Shown: positions 31,558 to 46,763 of the stretch, piece by piece
How positions within the stretch are numbered: position 1 is the stretch's first letter
Layout of the letters: each line of letters begins with the position of its first letter
Assembly (NCBI RefSeq): GCF_016793705.1
Contig: NZ_JAEULO010000052.1
Coordinates: 1-64,000 of the forward strand
DNA length: 64,000 nucleotides
Direction: 5' to 3'
From: Tabrizicola sp.
GTDB lineage: Bacteria > Pseudomonadota > Alphaproteobacteria > Rhodobacterales > Rhodobacteraceae
Made by a program: the position numbers and the translations under genes
Notes under the pieces: model-generated
Seen by the model: the letters and a program-made list of their open reading frames with translations, nothing else
What the model was told of the DNA's origin: nothing
The model's database searches: none

Positions 31558-33231
31558 TCAGCCAGGACCGTCAGCGCCGCGAACCGCGAACAGCAACAGC
31601 TTGCGCAGCGTGGTCAACCCCGCGCCCTCCGAGCCCCCCAGCATGCTGTCGCGCGGATGCCAGCGGCGGCCGTCGCGGTTCAGCAGTGAGTCCGGGTTCA
31701 GCCGGATCAGGCCGGTGATGGTGTCGGCGATGATATGGCTCGCCGTGGCACCGACGCGCTCGCCGTTCTCGCGCAGGCGCGATTCACACAGGAAATACAG
31801 CCAGGCCGGGGTCTCGCGCAGGAATCCCAGCGCGGCGGCGGTCTCGCGCAGGCCGGGCTCCCCCGCGCCCGGAGGCCCGTCCTCCGGCAGCGCCGCGCGC
31901 AGTTCCTCCTCGGTCAGCGGCGTGACGCCATATTCGACGGCAAGCCGCTGGCCCAGCGGGATCCGGCGGTGGAACCCGCGCATCAGGTTGCGGAACAGGA
32001 TCGAGCCGTGAACCGCCACATCAGAGGAGCCCACCAGGTTCAGCATGTCGCGGGCGAAGGTCAGGTCGATCCGCTCGGCGCTGCCGAAGGGGCGCGGCGT
32101 GCCGCCGGGTCTCGGCGGCAAAAGCCGGGTCATCCGCGCCCAGTCGATCACCCAGTGATCCGGCAGCGCCAGCGTCGCCGTCACGTCGCTTTGCATGTTG
32201 TTGCGGCTGGTGAAGGCGAACAGATCCTCCAGCGTCGCGCCTTCGTCGGATATCCGCCCGTTCAGCCCGAAATTCGCGTTGAAATCATACGCCGAGCCCA
32301 CCATCGAATGCCCGAAGCGGAAGGCTGCGGTGGTGAATTCCAGCGGCACGCGACCGGCCTCGGCCAGCCGCACCGGCCGCCGCGCCAGCGACCCCGACAG
32401 GACCGAGGGCGACAGGAGCCGGGGCAGGTAGTCGTGCAGGATCAGCCAGTGGTAATGCCGGGTCACCAGGCCGCGCGCCTCGGCGAAGCAGCGGGCGGGG
32501 TCGGGGACCTGCGGCTCCAGCGCGGCCACCGCCTTGTTGTGCAGAAGCATCAGCGCCAGATGCAGCTGGCTGAGGATCAGGTTCTCGTCGTTGCGGCGGT
32601 CGGCGATCAGCGCCTTGCGCCCCGCGCGCGGCAGGTCCGGCGCGCCGGTGGCATGAACCACCCGGCCCGGATCGATGAGCAGATCGGTAAAGACCTGCTC
32701 CGCCTCGCGCCGGGTCTGCCCCAGGCGGAACCGCTTGCCGTCCGCTTCGTAAAGCGCGCGTACTTCGGGATCGGCGCTGTCCGGCCCCTCGCCGTAAAGG
32801 CTCGCCAGCGTCAGCGGGGCCTCGTGTTCGTTGGCAAGGTTTTCCAGGATGATCTCCGGCGCCGCGCGGCGATTGCGGTCCAGCCCCGGCGGGTCGGCGG
32901 TGCCGATGACGCCCGCCACCGGCGTCCAGCCCGCCTGCGTCACCACGTCGCCGCTCGGGGCCGAGATGTCGTGGTTCATGAACTGGCCGAAATAGGTATA
33001 GGCGGCGGGAAGCCGCATTTGCAGCACCGGCATCCGGCTCAGCGGCACGCGCGAGGCCAGCTCGAAGGCGCGCAGCCGGTCGCAGGTCTGCCGCGGTGTG
33101 GTGCCCGTCACGCAGCCGGCCAGCAGATCCTCGGCCAGATGCGGAAAGAGATAGCAGTAGCGCGACCGCGCCAGCGGCACCGCCCGGGTTGCGATCCCGT
33201 CAATCAGGTCATGCGCGCTGGTGATCGGCAT
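31558..33231 (-). CDS. Animal-type heme peroxidase family protein
   Basis: 557 aa starting MPITSAHDLIDG, 20 bp after the YcaO stop. Signature elements of the animal heme peroxidase superfamily are readable: distal His87 in FGQFMNHDIS, Arg213 and Glu216 in ADRRNDEN matching the catalytic Arg-x-x-Glu of myeloperoxidase, LALMLLHNKAV, and proximal His308 in AAFRFGHSMV. The Asp that esterifies heme in myeloperoxidase is Asn86 here. No signal peptide is seen, so it is probably cytoplasmic, unlike mammalian members. The coupling with YcaO suggests it oxidises a modified peptide or protein, which is inference. A longer upstream frame overlapping ycaO is a shadow. Confidence 0.85.
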   Translation of the reverse strand: MPITSAHDLIDGIATRAVPLARSRYCYLFPHLAEDLLAGCVTGTTPRQTCDRLRAFELASRVPLSRMPVLQMRLPAAYTYFGQFMNHDISAPSGDVVTQAGWTPVAGVIGTADPPGLDRNRRAAPEIILENLANEHEAPLTLASLYGEGPDSADPEVRALYEADGKRFRLGQTRREAEQVFTDLLIDPGRVVHATGAPDLPRAGRKALIADRRNDENLILSQLHLALMLLHNKAVAALEPQVPDPARCFAEARGLVTRHYHWLILHDYLPRLLSPSVLSGSLARRPVRLAEAGRVPLEFTTAAFRFGHSMVGSAYDFNANFGLNGRISDEGATLEDLFAFTSRNNMQSDVTATLALPDHWVIDWARMTRLLPPRPGGTPRPFGSAERIDLTFARDMLNLVGSSDVAVHGSILFRNLMRGFHRRIPLGQRLAVEYGVTPLTEEELRAALPEDGPPGAGEPGLRETAAALGFLRETPAWLYFLCESRLRENGERVGATASHIIADTITGLIRLNPDSLLNRDGRRWHPRDSMLGGSEGAGLTTLRKLLLFAVRGADGPG

Positions 33232-33251
33232 CCTTGCTCCTTCGACCTGGG

Positions 33252-34316
33252 TCAGTAGGGCTCGGGCAGGGTCGGCCCTCGCGCATCCGGGCAGAGCCGG
33301 GCAAAGCGCGGCGTCGCGATCCGTCCCCGCATCGCGCAAAGCCCTGGAACCAGGACGCGCACGCAGGGCAGGGGATCCTGCGGCAGGGTCAGGTTCACCG
33401 CAAGCGCGCGATGGCCAAGAGTCTCCAGCCGGGCGAGTGTCGCACCCAAGGCAATAGGCGCTGCCGCTTCCCGCGCCAGGGTCGATGCCCGGAACTGCGG
33501 CTGGTCGCGCTGCGAGCCGTAGCGGATCCAGGCCTGCACCTCCGGATCCCCCGCCTCGCGCGCAAGCCCCATGCCGACCTCGGTCTGCACCATCTCGGTC
33601 ACGGCGGCCAGCGCCGCATCGGCGATCAGGGGCCTGGCCGCCGTTCCGGTCGCGATGGCCCGTCCCTCGGCATCCGCCGAAACCGCCACCACCACGGGCA
33701 GGCCGATGTCCGAAGTCAGGTCCAAAAGCTCCGTCCGTCGCGCCCGCTGGTGCAGCCACCAGTAAAGTCGGGGCTGCTGCGGGTCGATCACCTCCAGCGG
33801 CAGGGCGGCGGCGGGCTGCTGCCCGTGCCACCACAGCGCCACGGCATCGCGCTCGATGCATTCCCACAGCGCTGCCGCCAGCGCGCTGTCCCGGTCGCGG
33901 CCCACCGCGCAGCCGGTAGAATTCGCCTCCTCCCGCAAGGGCTCCTCCAGCACGGCGGCGCAGTCCAGATAGACCTCCTGCGCCAGCACCGGCACCTGCG
34001 CCCCGCTGACCAGGTCGGTCGCCTGCACCACCGCCAGCCCGTCGCGCCGGGACAGGCCCGCCAGTTCGTCGAGATGCCGCACTGCCAGGCTCGCCCGCAG
34101 TTCCAGCGCCTCGGCCCCCGCCGACAGCATCGCCTGTTGCGTTGTCATGCCCCGGCCCGCCGGCAGCCTTGGCTTCAACCCGGTCACCCCCTCGCCCGTC
34201 GGCAGGGCGACCGCCAGGAACAGCGGCGCCTCCGGCGCATTCAGCGGCATCAGCTGGAAGTCACGCTCCAGCGCCTCGCAAAGCCGCGCAATCATGTCGG
34301 CGGGGGTCGGTTTCAT
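33252..34316 (-). CDS. YcaO-domain protein (peptide backbone-modifying ATPase family)
   Basis: 354 aa. YcaO features are visible in order: SAGAEALELR (Glu69, Glu72), NSTGCAVG (132-139), ALWECIERDAVALWW (Glu152, Glu155, Arg156) and the Mg/ATP Glu241 and Gln244 in AAVTEMVQTE, then VRVLVPGLCAMRG and a Pro-rich end LPEPY. YcaO enzymes use ATP to activate backbone amides, making azolines, thioamides or amidines in RiPPs and in a few proteins. The LVPGL segment and Pro-rich tail resemble azoline-forming members. No E1-like, TfuA or dehydrogenase partner is nearby; the next gene in the operon is a heme peroxidase. Start ATG 34316 is chosen over an upstream one at 34379. Confidence 0.88.
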   Translation of the reverse strand: MKPTPADMIARLCEALERDFQLMPLNAPEAPLFLAVALPTGEGVTGLKPRLPAGRGMTTQQAMLSAGAEALELRASLAVRHLDELAGLSRRDGLAVVQATDLVSGAQVPVLAQEVYLDCAAVLEEPLREEANSTGCAVGRDRDSALAAALWECIERDAVALWWHGQQPAAALPLEVIDPQQPRLYWWLHQRARRTELLDLTSDIGLPVVVAVSADAEGRAIATGTAARPLIADAALAAVTEMVQTEVGMGLAREAGDPEVQAWIRYGSQRDQPQFRASTLAREAAAPIALGATLARLETLGHRALAVNLTLPQDPLPCVRVLVPGLCAMRGRIATPRFARLCPDARGPTLPEPY

Positions 34317-34461
34317 GCTTGCATTGGAGGGCCGTTGCCGGAAACGATCAAGCCCGGAGTCGATGCGGCGCCAGGGCATTTCACGCTGCCATCACGGGCC
34401 CGCCGAACAGTCGGTCACGGATGTGCGACCGAAGGCGACACGACAGGAAAGAGAGGGCGGA

Positions 34462-34842
34462 ATGGTAGGATTCTTCAAACTGAAAAGCGATGCATTGGCC
34501 GATCAGGTCGCGACGGGCGAGGCGATCATGCGCGTCTCGAAATCGGCCTTCAAGGATACGGCCACCTCCGAGTGGAAGAAGTTCAACGACGACACCCGCG
34601 GCTGGCTGCACGCCAACGGCTACCGCTACGACGGCCCCGGCGCCGGTCCGAACGGCGAGATTCCGGATTCGGTCGAGATCGTGCCGGTCTACGACACGCC
34701 CAACCGGATGCATGTCCGGGTGCCGTGGTCGGGCCTTCTGAAGACCCCGCCGCAGGTCGAGGATGAACCAAGCTATGGCGGGTCGCAGAACGTGCGCTTC
34801 AAGGTGCTGCTCGCCCGCTATTTCATGCGCCACTGCCGCTGA
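34462..34842 (+). CDS. 126-aa protein divergent from the YcaO gene, unknown
   Basis: Soluble 126-aa protein starting MVGFFKLKSDALADQVATGE, with GAGAGGGCGGA upstream. The first 55 residues look helical (possible leader or docking region); the middle is GPGAGPNGEIPDS, then a beta-rich part, ending YFMRHCR with the only Cys at residue 125. An in-frame ATG at 34363 could add 33 residues. It is read away from ycaO with 145 bp between starts. I do not recognise the family. Being a substrate of the YcaO/peroxidase pair is possible but unsupported beyond position; it is long for a RiPP precursor. Confidence 0.75.
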   Translation: MVGFFKLKSDALADQVATGEAIMRVSKSAFKDTATSEWKKFNDDTRGWLHANGYRYDGPGAGPNGEIPDSVEIVPVYDTPNRMHVRVPWSGLLKTPPQVEDEPSYGGSQNVRFKVLLARYFMRHCR

Positions 34843-34853
34843 AGGCCCCGCGC

Positions 34854-36872
34854 TCAGGCGTGTTCCGCGGCCATGTCGCGGGCCAGCCGGAGGCCCTTCT
34901 GCAGGGAAAGCCGGCCCTCGGGCCAGCAGATCGGCAGGCTTTCGACGACCCAACTCTCCAGCGCCTCCTCGTCGGGGGTGTCGGGTCCGTCCCACATCTG
35001 GCTCGCGATGCGGCGGAAGGTGCGGTAGGCCGCACCGGCCTCTTCCGCCCGCCCCAGATGTGCGAAGGAGGCGACCGCCCAGACGCCAAGGTCGGGGAAA
35101 CCGTCCGGGCATTTCTCGACGGTGGCGATGGTCGTGGCATGGTCGCCCGCCATGAAGTGAATGCCGGCCAGATAGGCCGTGTAATACTCGGGATAGATCG
35201 GGTTCAGCTTCACCGCCTGCATCGCCAGGTCCTTCGCCTCGGCGGCATGGCCGAGGAACCCCAGCCCGCTTGCCGCCGCGATCAGGGTTTCTGCATCATG
35301 CGGGTTCATGTCCACCGCCAGCCGGAAATGCGAATTGGCCCGTTCCGGCGACCGGGCGATGGCCCAGTTCCACGCCATGCTGATGTGGCAGCGCGGGTCG
35401 TAGGGGTCAAGCGCGATGGCCTCGCGCGCGTGCTTGAAGGCCTTGGCGCAGTCGGCCTTGCGGTTGGCATAACCGGGGCGGACCATGCTGCGCGTGCTCA
35501 GCACCTGCGCCAGGCTCGCATGGCTGCCCGCCAGGCCGGGGTCCAGGTCGATCGCCTTCAGGAACATCGCTTCCGCTTCCGCGTCCGCTTCCGCCGACCA
35601 CAGCCGCGACAGCTGGTGCCCCTTCAGCCACAGGTCATAGGCCACCGGATTGCCCGGTGTCGAACGGGCATGGCGCAGCAGGGTGATGTGGTTCACCTGT
35701 GACGCCAGGTTCGCCGCCACCGCCCCCGCGACCGATGAACTGATCTCCTGCAACTCGTGTTCCGCCACCGGGAACAGGTGCGACCAGACCTCGCTGCCGT
35801 CGCGGCAGTCGATCAGCGTGACGAACAGCTTCCCGGTCCCCGTGCGCCAGTCCAGCACGCAGTCCACCGCGAAATCGGCGTCGATGGCCGCGCCCACGGC
35901 GGTGAAGTCGACGGCGGCGGCCGAGTCGAAGCCGCTCGACGGCCAGGGGATCACGATCCAGCAGCGGAATTTCGACAGGCAGGATTTGGCAAGGAAGGCA
36001 AAGCCTTCGCCCAGATAGTCCTTGCTGGCATCGGTGTGCCGGGTCAGCGGCGGCCGGATGGTGATCCGCGGCGGGCCGCTGCGGGTCAGGGGCGCACGGC
36101 TCGCCTGCACCGGCGCCACCCCGCGCGGCAGGGACACCTCGCCGCTCTTGATCGCGACCAGAAGCTCCTGCGACGCCTCGCTCGGCTCGCTGTCCAGCTC
36201 CTCGGCAAGGGCCTGTTCCAGCAGCCCGAACTGCCGCAGCGCCGCCGACTGGTCGCCCCGCAGCGCGTGGAAGCGCATGATGAACTGATGTGCCAATTCG
36301 TGCGAGGGCTCGATCCGCACCAGCTCCTCGGCGACGCGGGTGTCGGTCAAGGCATTGGCAGCGATCAGTCTTTCCAGCTGGTCAGTCAAGGCCGTGGTCA
36401 GAACCGAGCGCAACTGCGACCGTTCGATCTGCAACCAGGCCTCGAAGACCGGGGCCGCGGGCTGGGCCGGGCCGAACAGCTCGCCCAGCCACAGCGCCGC
36501 AGCGGACAGAAGCGCGTTCTGGTCATGCGTACTGGTGGCGATCAGCTCGCGGAACCGCCGCACGTCCAGATCGAAGGCTGCGCCCTTCAGACCGACCGAG
36601 AAGCGGTCAGCCTCGACCACATCCTCGTCCTCCGGCCCCAGCACCTCGCGCAATTCGCGCAGCGCCTGCCGCAGGCTCGACCGCGCCAGCGCCTCGGGGG
36701 CGGGGTCCCAGAGAAGCGAGGCCAGCTGTTCGCGGTTCATCCGGCAGCCGGGGCTGAGGAGCAGAAGCCCCAGCAGACAGCGCGTCTTGCGGGTCTTGAA
36801 CACGACCTCCTCGCCCGATGCGATGCGGGCGACCCGGCAAGAGCCCAGGAGATCGACGTGAAACCGGAACAT
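34854..36872 (-). CDS. SARP-like (BTAD) transcriptional regulator with C-terminal TPR region
   Basis: 672 aa. Residues 1-100 form an OmpR-type winged helix with the SARP opening (FRFHVDLLGSCRVAR, TRKTRCLLGLLLLSP, REQLASLLWD, SSLRQALRELREVLG). The bacterial transcriptional activation domain follows (about 110-245, LRGDQSAALRQFGLLEQAL). After a linker comes a middle alpha/beta domain (about 290-400) and TPR-like repeats (about 410-620). There is no membrane helix. Such proteins resemble AfsR/CadC-like regulators; in this context it may control the ycaO or transporter genes. It converges on the 126-aa gene, 11 bp between stops. Confidence 0.8.
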   Translation of the reverse strand: MFRFHVDLLGSCRVARIASGEEVVFKTRKTRCLLGLLLLSPGCRMNREQLASLLWDPAPEALARSSLRQALRELREVLGPEDEDVVEADRFSVGLKGAAFDLDVRRFRELIATSTHDQNALLSAAALWLGELFGPAQPAAPVFEAWLQIERSQLRSVLTTALTDQLERLIAANALTDTRVAEELVRIEPSHELAHQFIMRFHALRGDQSAALRQFGLLEQALAEELDSEPSEASQELLVAIKSGEVSLPRGVAPVQASRAPLTRSGPPRITIRPPLTRHTDASKDYLGEGFAFLAKSCLSKFRCWIVIPWPSSGFDSAAAVDFTAVGAAIDADFAVDCVLDWRTGTGKLFVTLIDCRDGSEVWSHLFPVAEHELQEISSSVAGAVAANLASQVNHITLLRHARSTPGNPVAYDLWLKGHQLSRLWSAEADAEAEAMFLKAIDLDPGLAGSHASLAQVLSTRSMVRPGYANRKADCAKAFKHAREAIALDPYDPRCHISMAWNWAIARSPERANSHFRLAVDMNPHDAETLIAAASGLGFLGHAAEAKDLAMQAVKLNPIYPEYYTAYLAGIHFMAGDHATTIATVEKCPDGFPDLGVWAVASFAHLGRAEEAGAAYRTFRRIASQMWDGPDTPDEEALESWVVESLPICWPEGRLSLQKGLRLARDMAAEHA

Positions 36873-37909: not shown

Positions 37910-39544
37910 TCAATTCCCCGCGCTTTCCATCTTGCGGTGCGCGATCACCTGCTCCAGCCAGCCCAGCTCCATCTCCGGCACCGAGGAAAGCAGAAGATCG
38001 GTGTAATCGTCGAACGGCGGGGTCAGCACGTCGGACTTCTGGCCGTACCGGACGACCGCGCCCTTGAACATCACCGCGATCTTGTCGGCGATGGCCTTCA
38101 CTGTCGCAAGGTCATGCGTGATGAAGAGGTAAGCCACCCCCGCCTCGGCCTGCAATGTCAGCAGAAGCTTCAGGATGCCGTCCGCCACCAGCGGATCCAG
38201 CGCCGAAGTGACCTCGTCGCAGATGATCAGCTTCGGGTTCGCCGCCAGCGCCCGGGCGATGCAGACGCGCTGCTTCTGGCCACCCGACAATTCGGCCGGG
38301 TAGCGCGCCGCGAACCCTTTGCCCATCTCGATCTGGTCCAGAAGCTCCTGCACCCGCTTGTCCCGCTCCGCCCCCTTGAGGCCGAAGTAGAACTCCAGCG
38401 GCCGCCCGATGATCGTCCCCACGGTCTGCCGCGGGTTCATCGCGGTGTCGGCCATCTGGTAGATCATCTGGATTTCGCGCAGGTCGTCCTTCGTCCGCCC
38501 CGCAAGATCGGCAGAGAGCTGGCGCCCGGCAAAGGTGATCCGGCCCTGCAAGGGCGGCAGAAGCCCGGTGATCGCCCGGGCCAGCGTCGACTTGCCCGAG
38601 CCGCTTTCGCCCACCACCGCCAGCGTCTGCCCGGCGGGCAGGTCGACCGTGACGTTCTTCAGCACGTCGAAATTGGTGCCCCGATAGCGCGCGGTGATGT
38701 TCTGCACCTGAAGAACCGGCGGGGCAGGGGCTTTCTCGGTATGCTCCAGGCCCCGGACTGAAACCAGCGCCTTGGTATAGTCCTGTGTCGGCGCATGGAT
38801 GACTTGCCCGGTCTCGCCCAGTTCCACCATCCTTCCGTGGCGCAGCACCATGATCTCGTCGGCCACCTGCGCCACCACGGCGAGGTCGTGGGTGATGTAG
38901 AGTGCTGCGACATGGGTGTCCCGGATCGCCTCCTTGATCGCGGCCAGCACGTCGATCTGGGTCGTCACATCCAGCGCGGTCGTCGGTTCGTCGAAGATCA
39001 CCAGGTCGGGCTTCGGGCACAAGGCCATCGCCGTCATGCAGCGCTGCAACTGCCCACCCGAGACCTGGTGTGGATAGCGATTGCCGATCGTGTCGGGGTT
39101 CGGCAGCCCCAGTTTCTTGAACAGCCCCCGCGCCCGCGCTTCCGCCTCGGCCTTGGTCATCAGCCCATGCGAGAGCGAGGTCTCGATCACCTGTTCCATG
39201 ATCTGCTTTGCCGGGTTGAAGCTGGCCGCCGCCGATTGCGAAACGTAAGTGACTTCGCGTCCCCTGAGCGCGCGCAGGGCCTTCGCATCGGCCAGCCGGA
39301 TTTCCCGTCCGTTCAGGTGGATCGTTCCCGCCGTCAGCCGCACCCCGCCGCGCCCGTAGGACATGGCGGACAGCCCGATGGTCGACTTGCCCGCCCCGGA
39401 TTCGCCGATCAGGCCCATCACGCGGCCCCGCTCCAGCGTCAGGTCCACCCCATGCACCAGCGTCACGTTCTTCGGCGGTTCCCCTGGCGGGTAAGAGGTG
39501 GCCTCGATCACCAGGCCCTTGATCTGGAGGAGAGGATCAGCCAC
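37910..39544 (-). CDS. Peptide/nickel-type ABC importer, fused dual ATPase (DppD-DppF)
   Basis: 544 aa with two ATPase domains in one chain. Domain 1 has Walker A GESGAGKST and signature VSGGQLQRC; domain 2 has GESGSGKST and LSGGQKQRVCIARAL. Each Walker B is followed by the expected Glu (VIFDEPTTALD; IICDEVTSALD). Fused forms of this kind power Dpp/Opp-type importers with DppB/DppC permeases. Its start overlaps the permease gene by 8 bp. The DppD-like C-terminal Fe-S Cys motif is not evident at the junction. Confidence 0.92.
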   Translation of the reverse strand: MADPLLQIKGLVIEATSYPPGEPPKNVTLVHGVDLTLERGRVMGLIGESGAGKSTIGLSAMSYGRGGVRLTAGTIHLNGREIRLADAKALRALRGREVTYVSQSAAASFNPAKQIMEQVIETSLSHGLMTKAEAEARARGLFKKLGLPNPDTIGNRYPHQVSGGQLQRCMTAMALCPKPDLVIFDEPTTALDVTTQIDVLAAIKEAIRDTHVAALYITHDLAVVAQVADEIMVLRHGRMVELGETGQVIHAPTQDYTKALVSVRGLEHTEKAPAPPVLQVQNITARYRGTNFDVLKNVTVDLPAGQTLAVVGESGSGKSTLARAITGLLPPLQGRITFAGRQLSADLAGRTKDDLREIQMIYQMADTAMNPRQTVGTIIGRPLEFYFGLKGAERDKRVQELLDQIEMGKGFAARYPAELSGGQKQRVCIARALAANPKLIICDEVTSALDPLVADGILKLLLTLQAEAGVAYLFITHDLATVKAIADKIAVMFKGAVVRYGQKSDVLTPPFDDYTDLLLSSVPEMELGWLEQVIAHRKMESAGN

Positions 39545-40352
39545 CGCGGCCTCCTTTCAGGCTGGAGGTGCGGGTGAGGATCCAGTCCGCCACCAGGTTC
39601 ACGCTGATTGCCAGTGCCGCGATGGCGGCAGCGGGCAGAAGCGCGGCGGACTTGCCGTAGATCAGCCCGTCCTTGTTCTCCTTCACCATGCCGCCCCAAT
39701 CCGCCAGGGGCGGCTGCACGCCAAGGCCCAGGAACGAGAGTGTCGAGATGAAGAGCACCGCGAAGATGAAGCGCAACCCGAACTCCGCCACCAGCGGCGA
39801 CAGCGCATTGGGCAGGATTTCGCGGAAGATGATCCAGCCGCCCTTCTCGCCGCGCAGCTTCGCCGCCTCGACATAGTCCATCACCGCGATGTCGACCGCG
39901 ACCGCGCGGCTCAACCGGAAGACGCGGGTGCTGTCCAGCACGCCCATCACCAGGATCAGCACGGTCAGGTTCAGCGGCAGCACCGACAGCATCACCAGCG
40001 CCACGATCAGCGAGGGAACCGCCATCACCAGATCGACAAGCCGCGACAGAAGCTGGTCGATCCAGCCGCCCTTGACGGCGGCCAGGAACCCCAGGAAGGC
40101 CCCCAGCGAGAAGGACAGGACCGAGGAGGCGAGCGCCACGAAGATGGTGATCTGCGCACCATAGATCAGGCGCGACAGGATATCCCGACCGATGGTGTCG
40201 GTGCCCAGCCAATGCTCCGAGGAAATGCCCTCCCACTGGCCTCCGCTGCTGTCGCTGATGGGCCAGGGCGCAATCCAGTGCGCGAAGACGGCGATGAAGA
40301 GGAAGGTCCCGGTCAGGACGAGGCCGATGAGGGCTGAAAGCGGAATCCTCAT
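39537..40352 (-). CDS. ABC importer permease, DppC type
   Basis: 271 aa with about six membrane helices. The N-terminal helix plus SSEHWLGTDTIGRDILSRLIYGAQ is the DppC/OppC hallmark, and AAKLRGEKGGWIIFREILPNAL is the EAA-type coupling loop to the ATPase. Its start overlaps the DppB stop (4 bp) and its end overlaps the ATPase gene, so the order is permease B, permease C, ATPase in one transcript. Confidence 0.92.
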   Translation of the reverse strand: MRIPLSALIGLVLTGTFLFIAVFAHWIAPWPISDSSGGQWEGISSEHWLGTDTIGRDILSRLIYGAQITIFVALASSVLSFSLGAFLGFLAAVKGGWIDQLLSRLVDLVMAVPSLIVALVMLSVLPLNLTVLILVMGVLDSTRVFRLSRAVAVDIAVMDYVEAAKLRGEKGGWIIFREILPNALSPLVAEFGLRFIFAVLFISTLSFLGLGVQPPLADWGGMVKENKDGLIYGKSAALLPAAAIAALAISVNLVADWILTRTSSLKGGRGG

Positions 40353-41305
40353 TTCGGATGCCTCAGTCTTGGGTTGGCCAGGATGCCGATGACATCGGCC
40401 AGCATGTTCAGGAAGATGTAGACGGCGGCGAAGACCAGACCCACGGCCTGCACCACCGGCAGGTCACGCTTCGTCACATGGTCGACGAGATACTGGCCAA
40501 GCGCGTTGTAGCCGAAGACCACTTCGACCACGACGACGCCGACGACCAGATAGGCGAGGTTCAGCATGACCACGCTGACCACCGGGGCGATGGCGTTCGG
40601 GAAGGCATGCTTCCAGATGATCGTCATCGGCGACAGGCCCTTCAGCTCCGCCGTCTCGATATAGGCCGATTGCATGACGTTCAGGATCGCCGCGCGGGTC
40701 ATCCGCATCATGTGCGCAAGGACGACGAGAACCAGCACGATGACTGGCAGGGCTACGGCATGAAGCTTTGCCCAGAAAGTCATCCCCGGGAAGACCATGG
40801 CGACGGGCTGGAAGATCGGGATAAGCTGGGTCAGCAGGTAGATCACGAAATAGGCCGCGACGAATTCCGGCAGGCTGATCGTGGTCAGCGTGATGCCCGA
40901 GATCAGCTTGTCCGGCCAGCGCCCGGCATAGCGCGCGGCGATCAGGCCCAGAAGGATCGCGAGTGGCACGGCGATGACTGCGGCGCAACCGGCCAGGAAC
41001 AGCGTGTTGCCCAGCCGCTGCCCGATGGACTGCGCGATGTCGGCCCCGTTGGTCAGAGAGGTGCCCAGATCGCCGGTCAGCACGCCGCCGAGCCATTGGA
41101 AATAGCGGGTCAGGGGCGGCTGGTTCAGCCCCATCTTCTCGCGCAGGTTGGCCAGCGCCTCGGGTGTGGCCTGCTGGCCGAGGATCGCCTGCGCGGTATC
41201 GCCCGGCAGCGCTTCGACGCCCAGGAAGATCACCGCCGAGACGGCGAGGAGCAAGAGGAGGCCCAGCGCAATGCGCTGGACCAGAAGTCTGACGATCGGA
41301 TGCAC
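40349..41305 (-). CDS. ABC importer permease, DppB type
   Basis: 318 aa, six helices. The N-terminus RIALGLLLLLAVSAVIFLGVEALPGD is the usual DppB opening; the coupling loop reads TAELKGLSPMTIIWKHAFPNAI. It pairs with the DppC-type permease. It starts 10 bp after the stop of the binding-protein gene. Confidence 0.92.
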   Translation of the reverse strand: MHPIVRLLVQRIALGLLLLLAVSAVIFLGVEALPGDTAQAILGQQATPEALANLREKMGLNQPPLTRYFQWLGGVLTGDLGTSLTNGADIAQSIGQRLGNTLFLAGCAAVIAVPLAILLGLIAARYAGRWPDKLISGITLTTISLPEFVAAYFVIYLLTQLIPIFQPVAMVFPGMTFWAKLHAVALPVIVLVLVVLAHMMRMTRAAILNVMQSAYIETAELKGLSPMTIIWKHAFPNAIAPVVSVVMLNLAYLVVGVVVVEVVFGYNALGQYLVDHVTKRDLPVVQAVGLVFAAVYIFLNMLADVIGILANPRLRHPK

Positions 41306-46327: not shown

Positions 46328-46404
46328 GCGGTGGTAGCTCAGTTGGTTAGAGTACCGGCCTGTCACGCCGGGGGTCGCGGGTTCGAGCCCCGTCCACCGC
46401 GCCA
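46328..46404 (+). tRNA. tRNA-Asp (anticodon GTC), copy 1
   Basis: 77 nt with acceptor pair GCGGTGG/CCACCGC, discriminator G, encoded CCA, anticodon GTC at 46362-46364 and an intact T arm. Identical to the copy 359 bp downstream. Confidence 0.97.
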
Positions 46405-46686: not shown

Positions 46687-46763
46687 GCGGTGGTAGCTCA
46701 GTTGGTTAGAGTACCGGCCTGTCACGCCGGGGGTCGCGGGTTCGAGCCCCGTCCACCGCGCCA
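46687..46763 (+). tRNA. tRNA-Asp (anticodon GTC), copy 2
   Basis: 77 nt, identical to copy 1, anticodon at 46721-46723, CCA encoded. Each copy has its own promoter-like sequence. Confidence 0.97.

Follow-up and report, generated by a model that had tools for sequence, protein, structure and literature searches.

Organization of the locus

The window analyzed here is a 64,000-nucleotide stretch of a Tabrizicola sp. genome (contig NZ_JAEULO010000052.1, positions 1 to 64,000). It carries four genes, built around a stand-alone YcaO enzyme and an animal-type heme peroxidase, that appear to form a protein-modification cassette. The YcaO gene (33252-34316, minus strand) encodes a 354-aa protein that matches Pfam PF02624 YcaO (E 1.7e-36). 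It is followed after 20 bp, on the same strand, by the gene for the 557-aa peroxidase (31558-33231), which matches Pfam PF03098 Animal haem peroxidase (E 4.7e-12). A divergent gene on the plus strand (34462-34842) encodes a 126-aa protein, the candidate substrate, whose tail reads ARYFMRHCR. Its start lies 145 bp upstream of the YcaO start, which is assumed to be at 34316. The protein contains a single Cys, the second-last residue, and this Cys125 (codon at 34834-34836, plus strand) is the predicted modification site. A first-pass annotation made from the sequence alone had described these three genes, their placement and identities, and the C-terminal Cys (MRHCR), and all of this was borne out. 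A fourth member of the unit was absent from that gene set. It is a regulator gene at 34854-36872 on the minus strand, encoding a 672-aa protein with winged-helix/BTAD and TPR domains (Pfam BTAD 2e-12, TPR_17 1.1e-05 and Trans_reg_C 6.4e-05, the last below its cut-off).

Recurrence of the cassette

The YcaO and the peroxidase were found together in 35 loci extending from Rhodobacterales to Mesorhizobium and other Alphaproteobacteria. These linked loci belong to several families, and gene order varies among them. A small protein of 123-251 aa (starts partly guessed) is encoded near the cassette genes at 35 of 35 linked loci, and a regulator homologue at 34 of 35, none being found at L070. All four genes stay together in the close relatives L021, L022, L024 and L025, and likewise in L020 up to its contig end. 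Could the adjacency simply reflect an unrelated island, with the tail pattern described below a coincidence? A single genome lineage alone could not rule this out. However, chance adjacency is untenable because the four genes remain together in these relatives, and the recurrence of the pairing at 35 loci led to its rejection: these span several families, their genes are rearranged and their tails are conserved. Coincidence is therefore extremely unlikely, and the four parts almost certainly work as one system. The first-pass annotation had proposed the peroxidase as an oxidative partner of the YcaO and would have given this up had the homologues rarely been adjacent elsewhere; the neighbourhood comparison points the other way and supports the pairing.

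Genome samples gave a similar picture. In a sample of 292 genomes of the order, YcaO was present in 55 (64 places) and an animal-type peroxidase in 98. A peroxidase lay within ~5 kb of YcaO at at least 15 of the 64 places (34 of them inspected), against a rough chance expectation of ~0.2 computed with 65 places. The class and phylum samples (385 and 388 genomes, partly overlapping, five candidates scored per genome) gave profile matches in 48 and 23 genomes. A peroxidase was present at 5 of 20 inspected class places (of 53) and 5 of 9 inspected phylum places (of 36). A scan of genome contigs contributed three linked loci. Seven linked loci are on named plasmids, those of Rhodobacteraceae QY30, Paracoccus aminovorans, Paracoccus denitrificans HAMBI_2443, Paracoccus SMMA_5_TC, Phaeobacter inhibens P78, Mesorhizobium huakuii and Paroceanicella profunda; the near-duplicate plasmid records H51 and H54 were left out.

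The window genome is a 3.8-Mb draft with one YcaO match and one animal-type peroxidase match. The nearest named relatives of its YcaO come from two Tabrizicola metagenome-assembled genomes and one Rhodobacteraceae metagenome-assembled genome. Two members of the genus lack the cassette, and the flanking phosphodiesterase gene is missing there as well, which leaves no empty site for comparison. Two further loci were recorded separately. L097 (6982-9692), a relative of L098 and L099, keeps the YcaO, has no peroxidase or regulator match and carries a small gene that is apparently a relic; it was not counted as linked. On the P. denitrificans HAMBI_2443 plasmid (L069:12071-14165), the cassette directly adjoins two further genes, one for a nitroreductase-family (SagB-like) protein and one for another YcaO of full length.

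Altered active site of the peroxidase

The window peroxidase belongs to the animal-type family (45.7 bits for PF03098; cut-off 25), and its closest solved relative by sequence is peroxinectin A (1.7e-06). No viral relatives were found. The first-pass annotation had listed His87, Arg213, Glu216 and His308 as catalytic. All 35 linked peroxidases have His87, Arg213 and His308, and likewise Q83 and R305. Glu216 did not prove general, the position being Glu in 9 and Asp in 19 of the 35.

In the myeloperoxidase family, the Asp preceding the distal His ester-links the heme. The window enzyme has Asn86 at this position and retains Glu216, and thus departs from the covalent-heme pattern of myeloperoxidase. 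The Asp is also missing at the other linked loci. With one enzyme counted per locus and L020 left out because its contig ends ~55 codons into the gene, none of the 34 linked peroxidases has Asp at the distal position; the residue is Gly in 12, Ala in 11, Asn in 6, Phe in 2, Thr in 2 and Ser in 1. The unlinked comparison set, 20 bacterial peroxidases of the order sample and 8 encoded on plasmids, gives the opposite result, as all 28 carry both the distal Asp and its ester-partner Glu. Because L072 and L160 carry an identical peroxidase, these are 27 distinct sequences, and with the duplicate removed the difference has a Fisher p of 6e-18. A second peroxidase at one locus (L101:10332-11828), reported apart from these counts, keeps the heme-ester Asp and groups with the unlinked enzymes.

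A tree of the peroxidases puts the window clade and the L075/L076 enzymes among Asp-bearing ones. Parsimony requires three changes at the Asp position, one of which is forced by supported branches. It is possible that Asp was lost repeatedly and that its loss is coupled to YcaO linkage. A peroxidase lacking the Asp ester should oxidize less strongly than myeloperoxidase and would probably not act on halides.

Two observations concern other peroxidase genes. Some order-sample genomes contain reading frames of ~2,100-3,400 aa with several animal-type peroxidase matches (e.g., G125:C1:883457-889651). On a Spirosoma plasmid (L144:4761-8160), a ThiF-family adenylyltransferase lies one gene from an unlinked heme peroxidase.

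The small protein and its C-terminal tail

The small proteins of different cassettes have little sequence in common. Ten compared rows outside its own group share 12-21% identity with the window protein, and the groups can hardly be aligned. What they share is a Cys near the C-terminus. It is the second-last residue at 32 of 35 linked loci; counted by sequence-distinct group, the figure is 22 of 25. As a background, 10 of 479 other predicted genes near YcaO loci end in this way (13 cassette small proteins removed). Cys accounts for 0.4% of the remaining small-protein residues, and 20 of the 35 proteins have no second Cys. The earlier proposal that the 126-aa protein is a possible substrate gains support from its regular presence and from this tail. 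In other words, the small protein is very probably the substrate, and its Cys is likely, with somewhat less assurance, to be the modified residue.

Among close relatives, the small protein changes least. It is 78-98% identical in five of them. The corresponding range in four of these is 67-72% for the YcaO and 62-77% for the peroxidase, and the YcaO of L020 is 76% identical. Compared with L021, the identity is 97.6% for the 126-aa protein, 93.6% for the regulator, 76.7% for the peroxidase and 70.9% for the YcaO, with silent changes in all four genes. The dN/dS of the small protein is 0.02 against L021 and 0.16-0.33 against the other three relatives, the latter range being just slightly lower than the 0.28-0.45 of the enzymes; these estimates are rough, and the calculation returned a warning. 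A very strong constraint on the small protein is thus confined to the L021 comparison.

The 126-aa protein matched no NCBIfam or Pfam family at E<=1 and gave no plasmid matches. A single PHROGs match (0.0097) was unconvincing, and seven further weak genome matches (E 8e-4 to 0.009) were judged to be due to chance.

Relatives without a peroxidase

Eleven relatives consist of YcaO, regulator and small protein, and a tblastn search with all linked peroxidases found no peroxidase in the stretch examined. The stretches of L055, L058 and L081 are short (6-9 kb), so the absence says less there. In 8 of the 11, the Cys is third-last (L055, L057, L058, L059, L060, L061, L062 and L081). Gly or Ser precedes the Cys in these eight tails, and by reading they have no Tyr five residues before it. 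The association of a third-last Cys with the lack of a peroxidase has a Fisher p of 5e-6, which serves as a guide rather than a probability because the loci are related. The remaining three (L033, L063 and L102) have a second-last Cys. L033 and L063 have an extra Cys at -5. Their small proteins (L033:12370-12912, ending CAQCT, and L063:6503-7063, ending CSQCA) stand beside a short YcaO and may represent a further tail class. At other peroxidase-less loci (such as L079, L088-L090, L103 and L105), a search for small proteins gave no convincing candidate. One peroxidase-less cassette has a regulator with a TPR-S sensor domain (L061:10281-11957, E 6e-07).

The YcaO enzyme and its missing partners

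The window YcaO is a clear member of its superfamily (126.6 bits; Pfam cut-off 25.7). The first-pass annotation had read the ATP/Mg motifs as intact, naming Glu69, Glu72, Glu152, Glu155, Glu241 and Gln244. Across 19 relatives, E69, E72 and E152 never vary, and E155, R156 and E241 hardly do; Q244 is present in the window enzyme and is not conserved. NCBIfam returned just sub-threshold YcaO models, the best being the SagD family (102.5 bits; cut-off 219.25). By NCBIfam, the enzyme is therefore not an orthologue of a named modifier of ribosomal proteins or of ribosomally synthesized and post-translationally modified peptides (RiPPs), a possibility that the first-pass annotation had held against its proposal. 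The C-terminus reads LPEP(Y/F) in the window enzyme and close relatives, and other relatives end differently. A proline-rich (PxPxP-like) C-terminus is a criterion for azoline-forming YcaOs. Judged from the size of the enzyme (354 aa), no fused leader-binding domain is evident.

Where are the usual partners of a YcaO? Among the window neighbours scanned (a subset of the open reading frames, which did not take in, for example, the permease frames at 39537-41305), none was an E1-like/ThiF, TfuA, SagB-type or radical-SAM protein, in line with the earlier statement that these helpers are missing, and none was a P450. In other words, the scanned proteins include neither the E1-like/Ocin-ThiF or leader-binding partner nor the SagB-type flavin dehydrogenase that characterize azoline-forming thiazole/oxazole-modified microcins (TOMMs). 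The scanned neighbours are housekeeping and transport genes, encoding shikimate kinase, dehydroquinate synthase, an XerD-like recombinase, a CorC-like protein, an oligopeptide ABC transporter and an S15 peptidase. The window also contains two tRNA-Asp genes with the same Rfam score (46328-46404 and 46687-46763), ~360 bp apart.

These absences bear on an alternative in which the YcaO makes a thioamide or an amidine near the C-terminus and the Cys serves for recognition or metal binding. Both products have precedents, since YcaOs can make amidines according to the bottromycin sections of PMC5103208 and thioamides with TfuA according to part of PMC8120280. However, TfuA is not among the scanned neighbours, the Cys is the tail residue that the groups share, and the need for a peroxidase would go unexplained. 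This alternative is accordingly improbable.

A proposed mechanism

How could the four parts work together? We favor a RiPP-type cassette in which the YcaO acts at the C-terminal Cys and the peroxidase oxidizes the tail, a reading to which we assign a probability of roughly 0.55. In the 126-aa substrate, a long leader, which is probably folded, would precede a minimal core at the extreme C-terminus. YcaOs use ATP to activate a backbone amide. The window enzyme would activate the amide before Cys125, and the Cys thiol would then close a thiazoline. A thiazoline at Xaa124-Cys125 is the simplest predicted product because YcaOs activate amides and because the Cys is the tail residue common to the groups. 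The peroxidase, with a heme that is probably not ester-bound through a distal Asp, would then remove two electrons and convert thiazoline to thiazole, for a net change of -20 Da. Elsewhere, azoline oxidation is performed by SagB-type flavin dehydrogenases. Conversion of thiazoline to thiazole is the leading proposal because the scanned genes include a peroxidase but no flavin dehydrogenase and because a P450 in bottromycin biosynthesis and a GMC oxidase provide precedents. The BTAD/TPR regulator may control the cassette and may sense its product.

Several observations weigh against this reading. Most azoline-forming YcaOs need an E1-like partner, and the window YcaO is without one. The YcaO tree has a star-like shape (14 of its 60 forks are open) and did not recover the peroxidase-linked YcaOs as a single clade; in this tree L078 was left out (contig end), and L074 is very likely mis-framed (branch 3.9; 416-aa open reading frame at 590-1840). 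Gly-Cys is common in TOMMs, unlike the linked tails, in which the Cys mostly follows a bulky residue (R in 8, M in 8, H in 6 and K in 3 of the 32 second-last tails). The Cys itself is third-last in the linked locus L077 and stands at -1 and -4 in L075 and L076. Together with the peroxidase-less L033, L063 and L102, these exceptions mean that the peroxidase and the Cys position are not locked to each other. Furthermore, the residue five before the Cys (-7) is Tyr in 25 of the 32 second-last tails (Ile in 4, Phe in 2 and Leu in 1), and in those tails the target of the peroxidase may therefore be Tyr. Finally, the cassettes contain no annotated protease or exporter.

The regular Tyr leads to an alternative in which the YcaO alters the backbone at the Cys and the peroxidase carries out a different reaction, such as a Tyr-Cys or other radical crosslink, oxidation of Tyr or sulfur, or cleavage or decarboxylation of the tail. 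Peroxidases readily generate tyrosyl radicals, and Tyr is absent at that distance in the eight peroxidase-less third-last tails. The seven second-last tails without Tyr (L026-L030, L041 and L096) coincide exactly with one peroxidase clade (support 100/96). On the other hand, the enzymes of this clade go with tails that have the Cys but no Tyr, the last nine residues of L096 include no aromatic one at all, and the peroxidase-less L033 and L063 carry the Tyr. A Tyr-Cys crosslink as the universal product was rejected on account of the clade without Tyr, and the broader alternative, though less likely than the favored reading, is a serious competitor. Because the upstream Tyr is so regular, confidence was nevertheless lowered, both overall and in the thiazoline/thiazole products; the specific sequence of thiazoline followed by thiazole is tentative, at somewhat less than even odds. 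Azole formation and oxidation of Cys or Tyr, the options offered by the first-pass annotation, are both compatible with a shared Cys and a Tyr that is frequent but missing in one peroxidase clade.

What would a modified protein of this kind be for? One possibility is that it stays intact in the cell as a signal or sensor whose modified tail is bound by the TPR/BTAD regulator. This concerns purpose rather than chemistry, and its odds overlap those of the favored reading. An intracellular signal is plausible because no protease or exporter is annotated in the cassettes and because the small protein and the regulator are conserved jointly, being the most conserved parts in the comparison with L021. 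It also fits the TPR-S domain of the L061 regulator and the class III cyclase domains in the regulators of some other cassettes. However, the conservation may have other causes, and genes for a protease or an exporter may be located away from the cassette. A signaling role is the less likely case. It is quite doubtful, and less likely still, that all of these features combine into a new class in which a peroxidase with non-covalent heme replaces the flavin azoline dehydrogenase, a lone YcaO acts at a second-last Cys, and an intact intracellular protein is read by a TPR regulator.

Implications

If the favored reading is true, animal-type heme peroxidases become a new class of oxidative enzyme in YcaO-dependent peptide modification, and bacterial animal-type peroxidases gain a concrete candidate substrate. 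The missing distal Asp provides a genome signature by which specialized peroxidases may be recognized. Likewise, the near-terminal Cys rule picks out candidate substrates that share little sequence. A minimal core behind a long leader could serve as a C-terminal protein-tagging system. The cassette is present in the culturable Paracoccus denitrificans, Phaeobacter inhibens and Mesorhizobium huakuii and is thus directly testable.

Comparison with known systems

Among the closest parallels are the TOMM, NHLP (TIGR03793) and NHLP-Burk (TIGR03795) systems, which share with the cassette a YcaO, a long leader and profile similarity to some small-protein subgroups. The profile similarity to NHLP was 81% for group B (Mesorhizobium-like), 51% for group D (third-last Cys) and 90% for B and D combined. 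For group E (L075/L076), it was 91% when three NHLP-Burk-type rows were added and 37.5% without them. The window group reached 1.8%, with a score above 40 of 40 column shuffles and a sensible alignment register (IPDSVEI...MHVRVP against IPDSMSI...VHLALP). The similarity is weakened by the shuffle controls for subset B1 alone and for group A2, in each of which 1 shuffle in 40 scored as high. The three NHLP-Burk-type sequences alone gave hhalign values of 0.1-0.9% against all groups, so that no group matched them. TIGR03793 itself had no match in the window protein at E<=1 or in its L022 homologue at E<=10, and a weak one in L081 (0.065). A plain NHLP assignment of the window protein is thus unproven. 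Its profile suggests that the small protein behaves like a leader-borne substrate, and NHLP membership is not claimed.

One member of each NHLP-Burk pair ends in Cys at the C-terminus, as the relevant part of PMC2887384 describes. Unlike the TOMM/NHLP systems, the window shows no E1-like or leader-binding fusion, no SagB, no Gly-Gly site before the core and no kinase/cyclase fusion, and it has a heme peroxidase and a BTAD/TPR regulator instead. By reading, no leader motif comes ahead of the lone GG of the window protein (SYGGSQNVRF), and the conserved tail follows it. We also considered whether the BTAD regulators are homologous to the kinase/cyclase fusion of NHLP-Burk (L108) and dropped the idea, as BLAST gave no match at 1e-3. 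Trifolitoxin is an alphaproteobacterial RiPP with a core Arg-Gln-Gly-Cys near the C-terminus, but it has other helpers and is a short exported peptide.

The peroxidase resembles myeloperoxidase, peroxinectin A and bacterial animal-type enzymes in its distal Gln/His, Arg and proximal His. Its unlinked bacterial counterparts keep the distal Asp and the Glu (28 of 28), whereas the cassette enzymes replace the Asp and often have Asp for Glu. No description of a YcaO-heme peroxidase pairing or of this cassette was found among the open-access papers listed by literature searches, and the word peroxidase is absent from the main text of a TOMM survey (PMC4603692).

Precedents for the chemistry come from two other systems. 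In bottromycin biosynthesis, a YcaO without a cyclodehydratase partner is implied in thiazoline formation and a heme P450 oxidizes the thiazoline, in a cluster without a flavin dehydrogenase (as set out in the relevant sections of PMC5103208). Bottromycin thus uses a P450 together with decarboxylation, whereas the cassette would use an animal-type peroxidase on the C-terminal core of a protein of 123-251 aa. The window protein differs from a bottromycin-like precursor in having a single residue after the Cys in place of a follower peptide, and no P450 among its scanned neighbours. In the Tha/The clusters, a GMC oxidase forms a thiazole in a RiPP outside the usual YcaO scheme, according to part of PMC13083261. 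The Tha/The enzyme is a flavin-dependent GMC oxidase that operates without a YcaO, whereas the cassette pairs a heme peroxidase with one.

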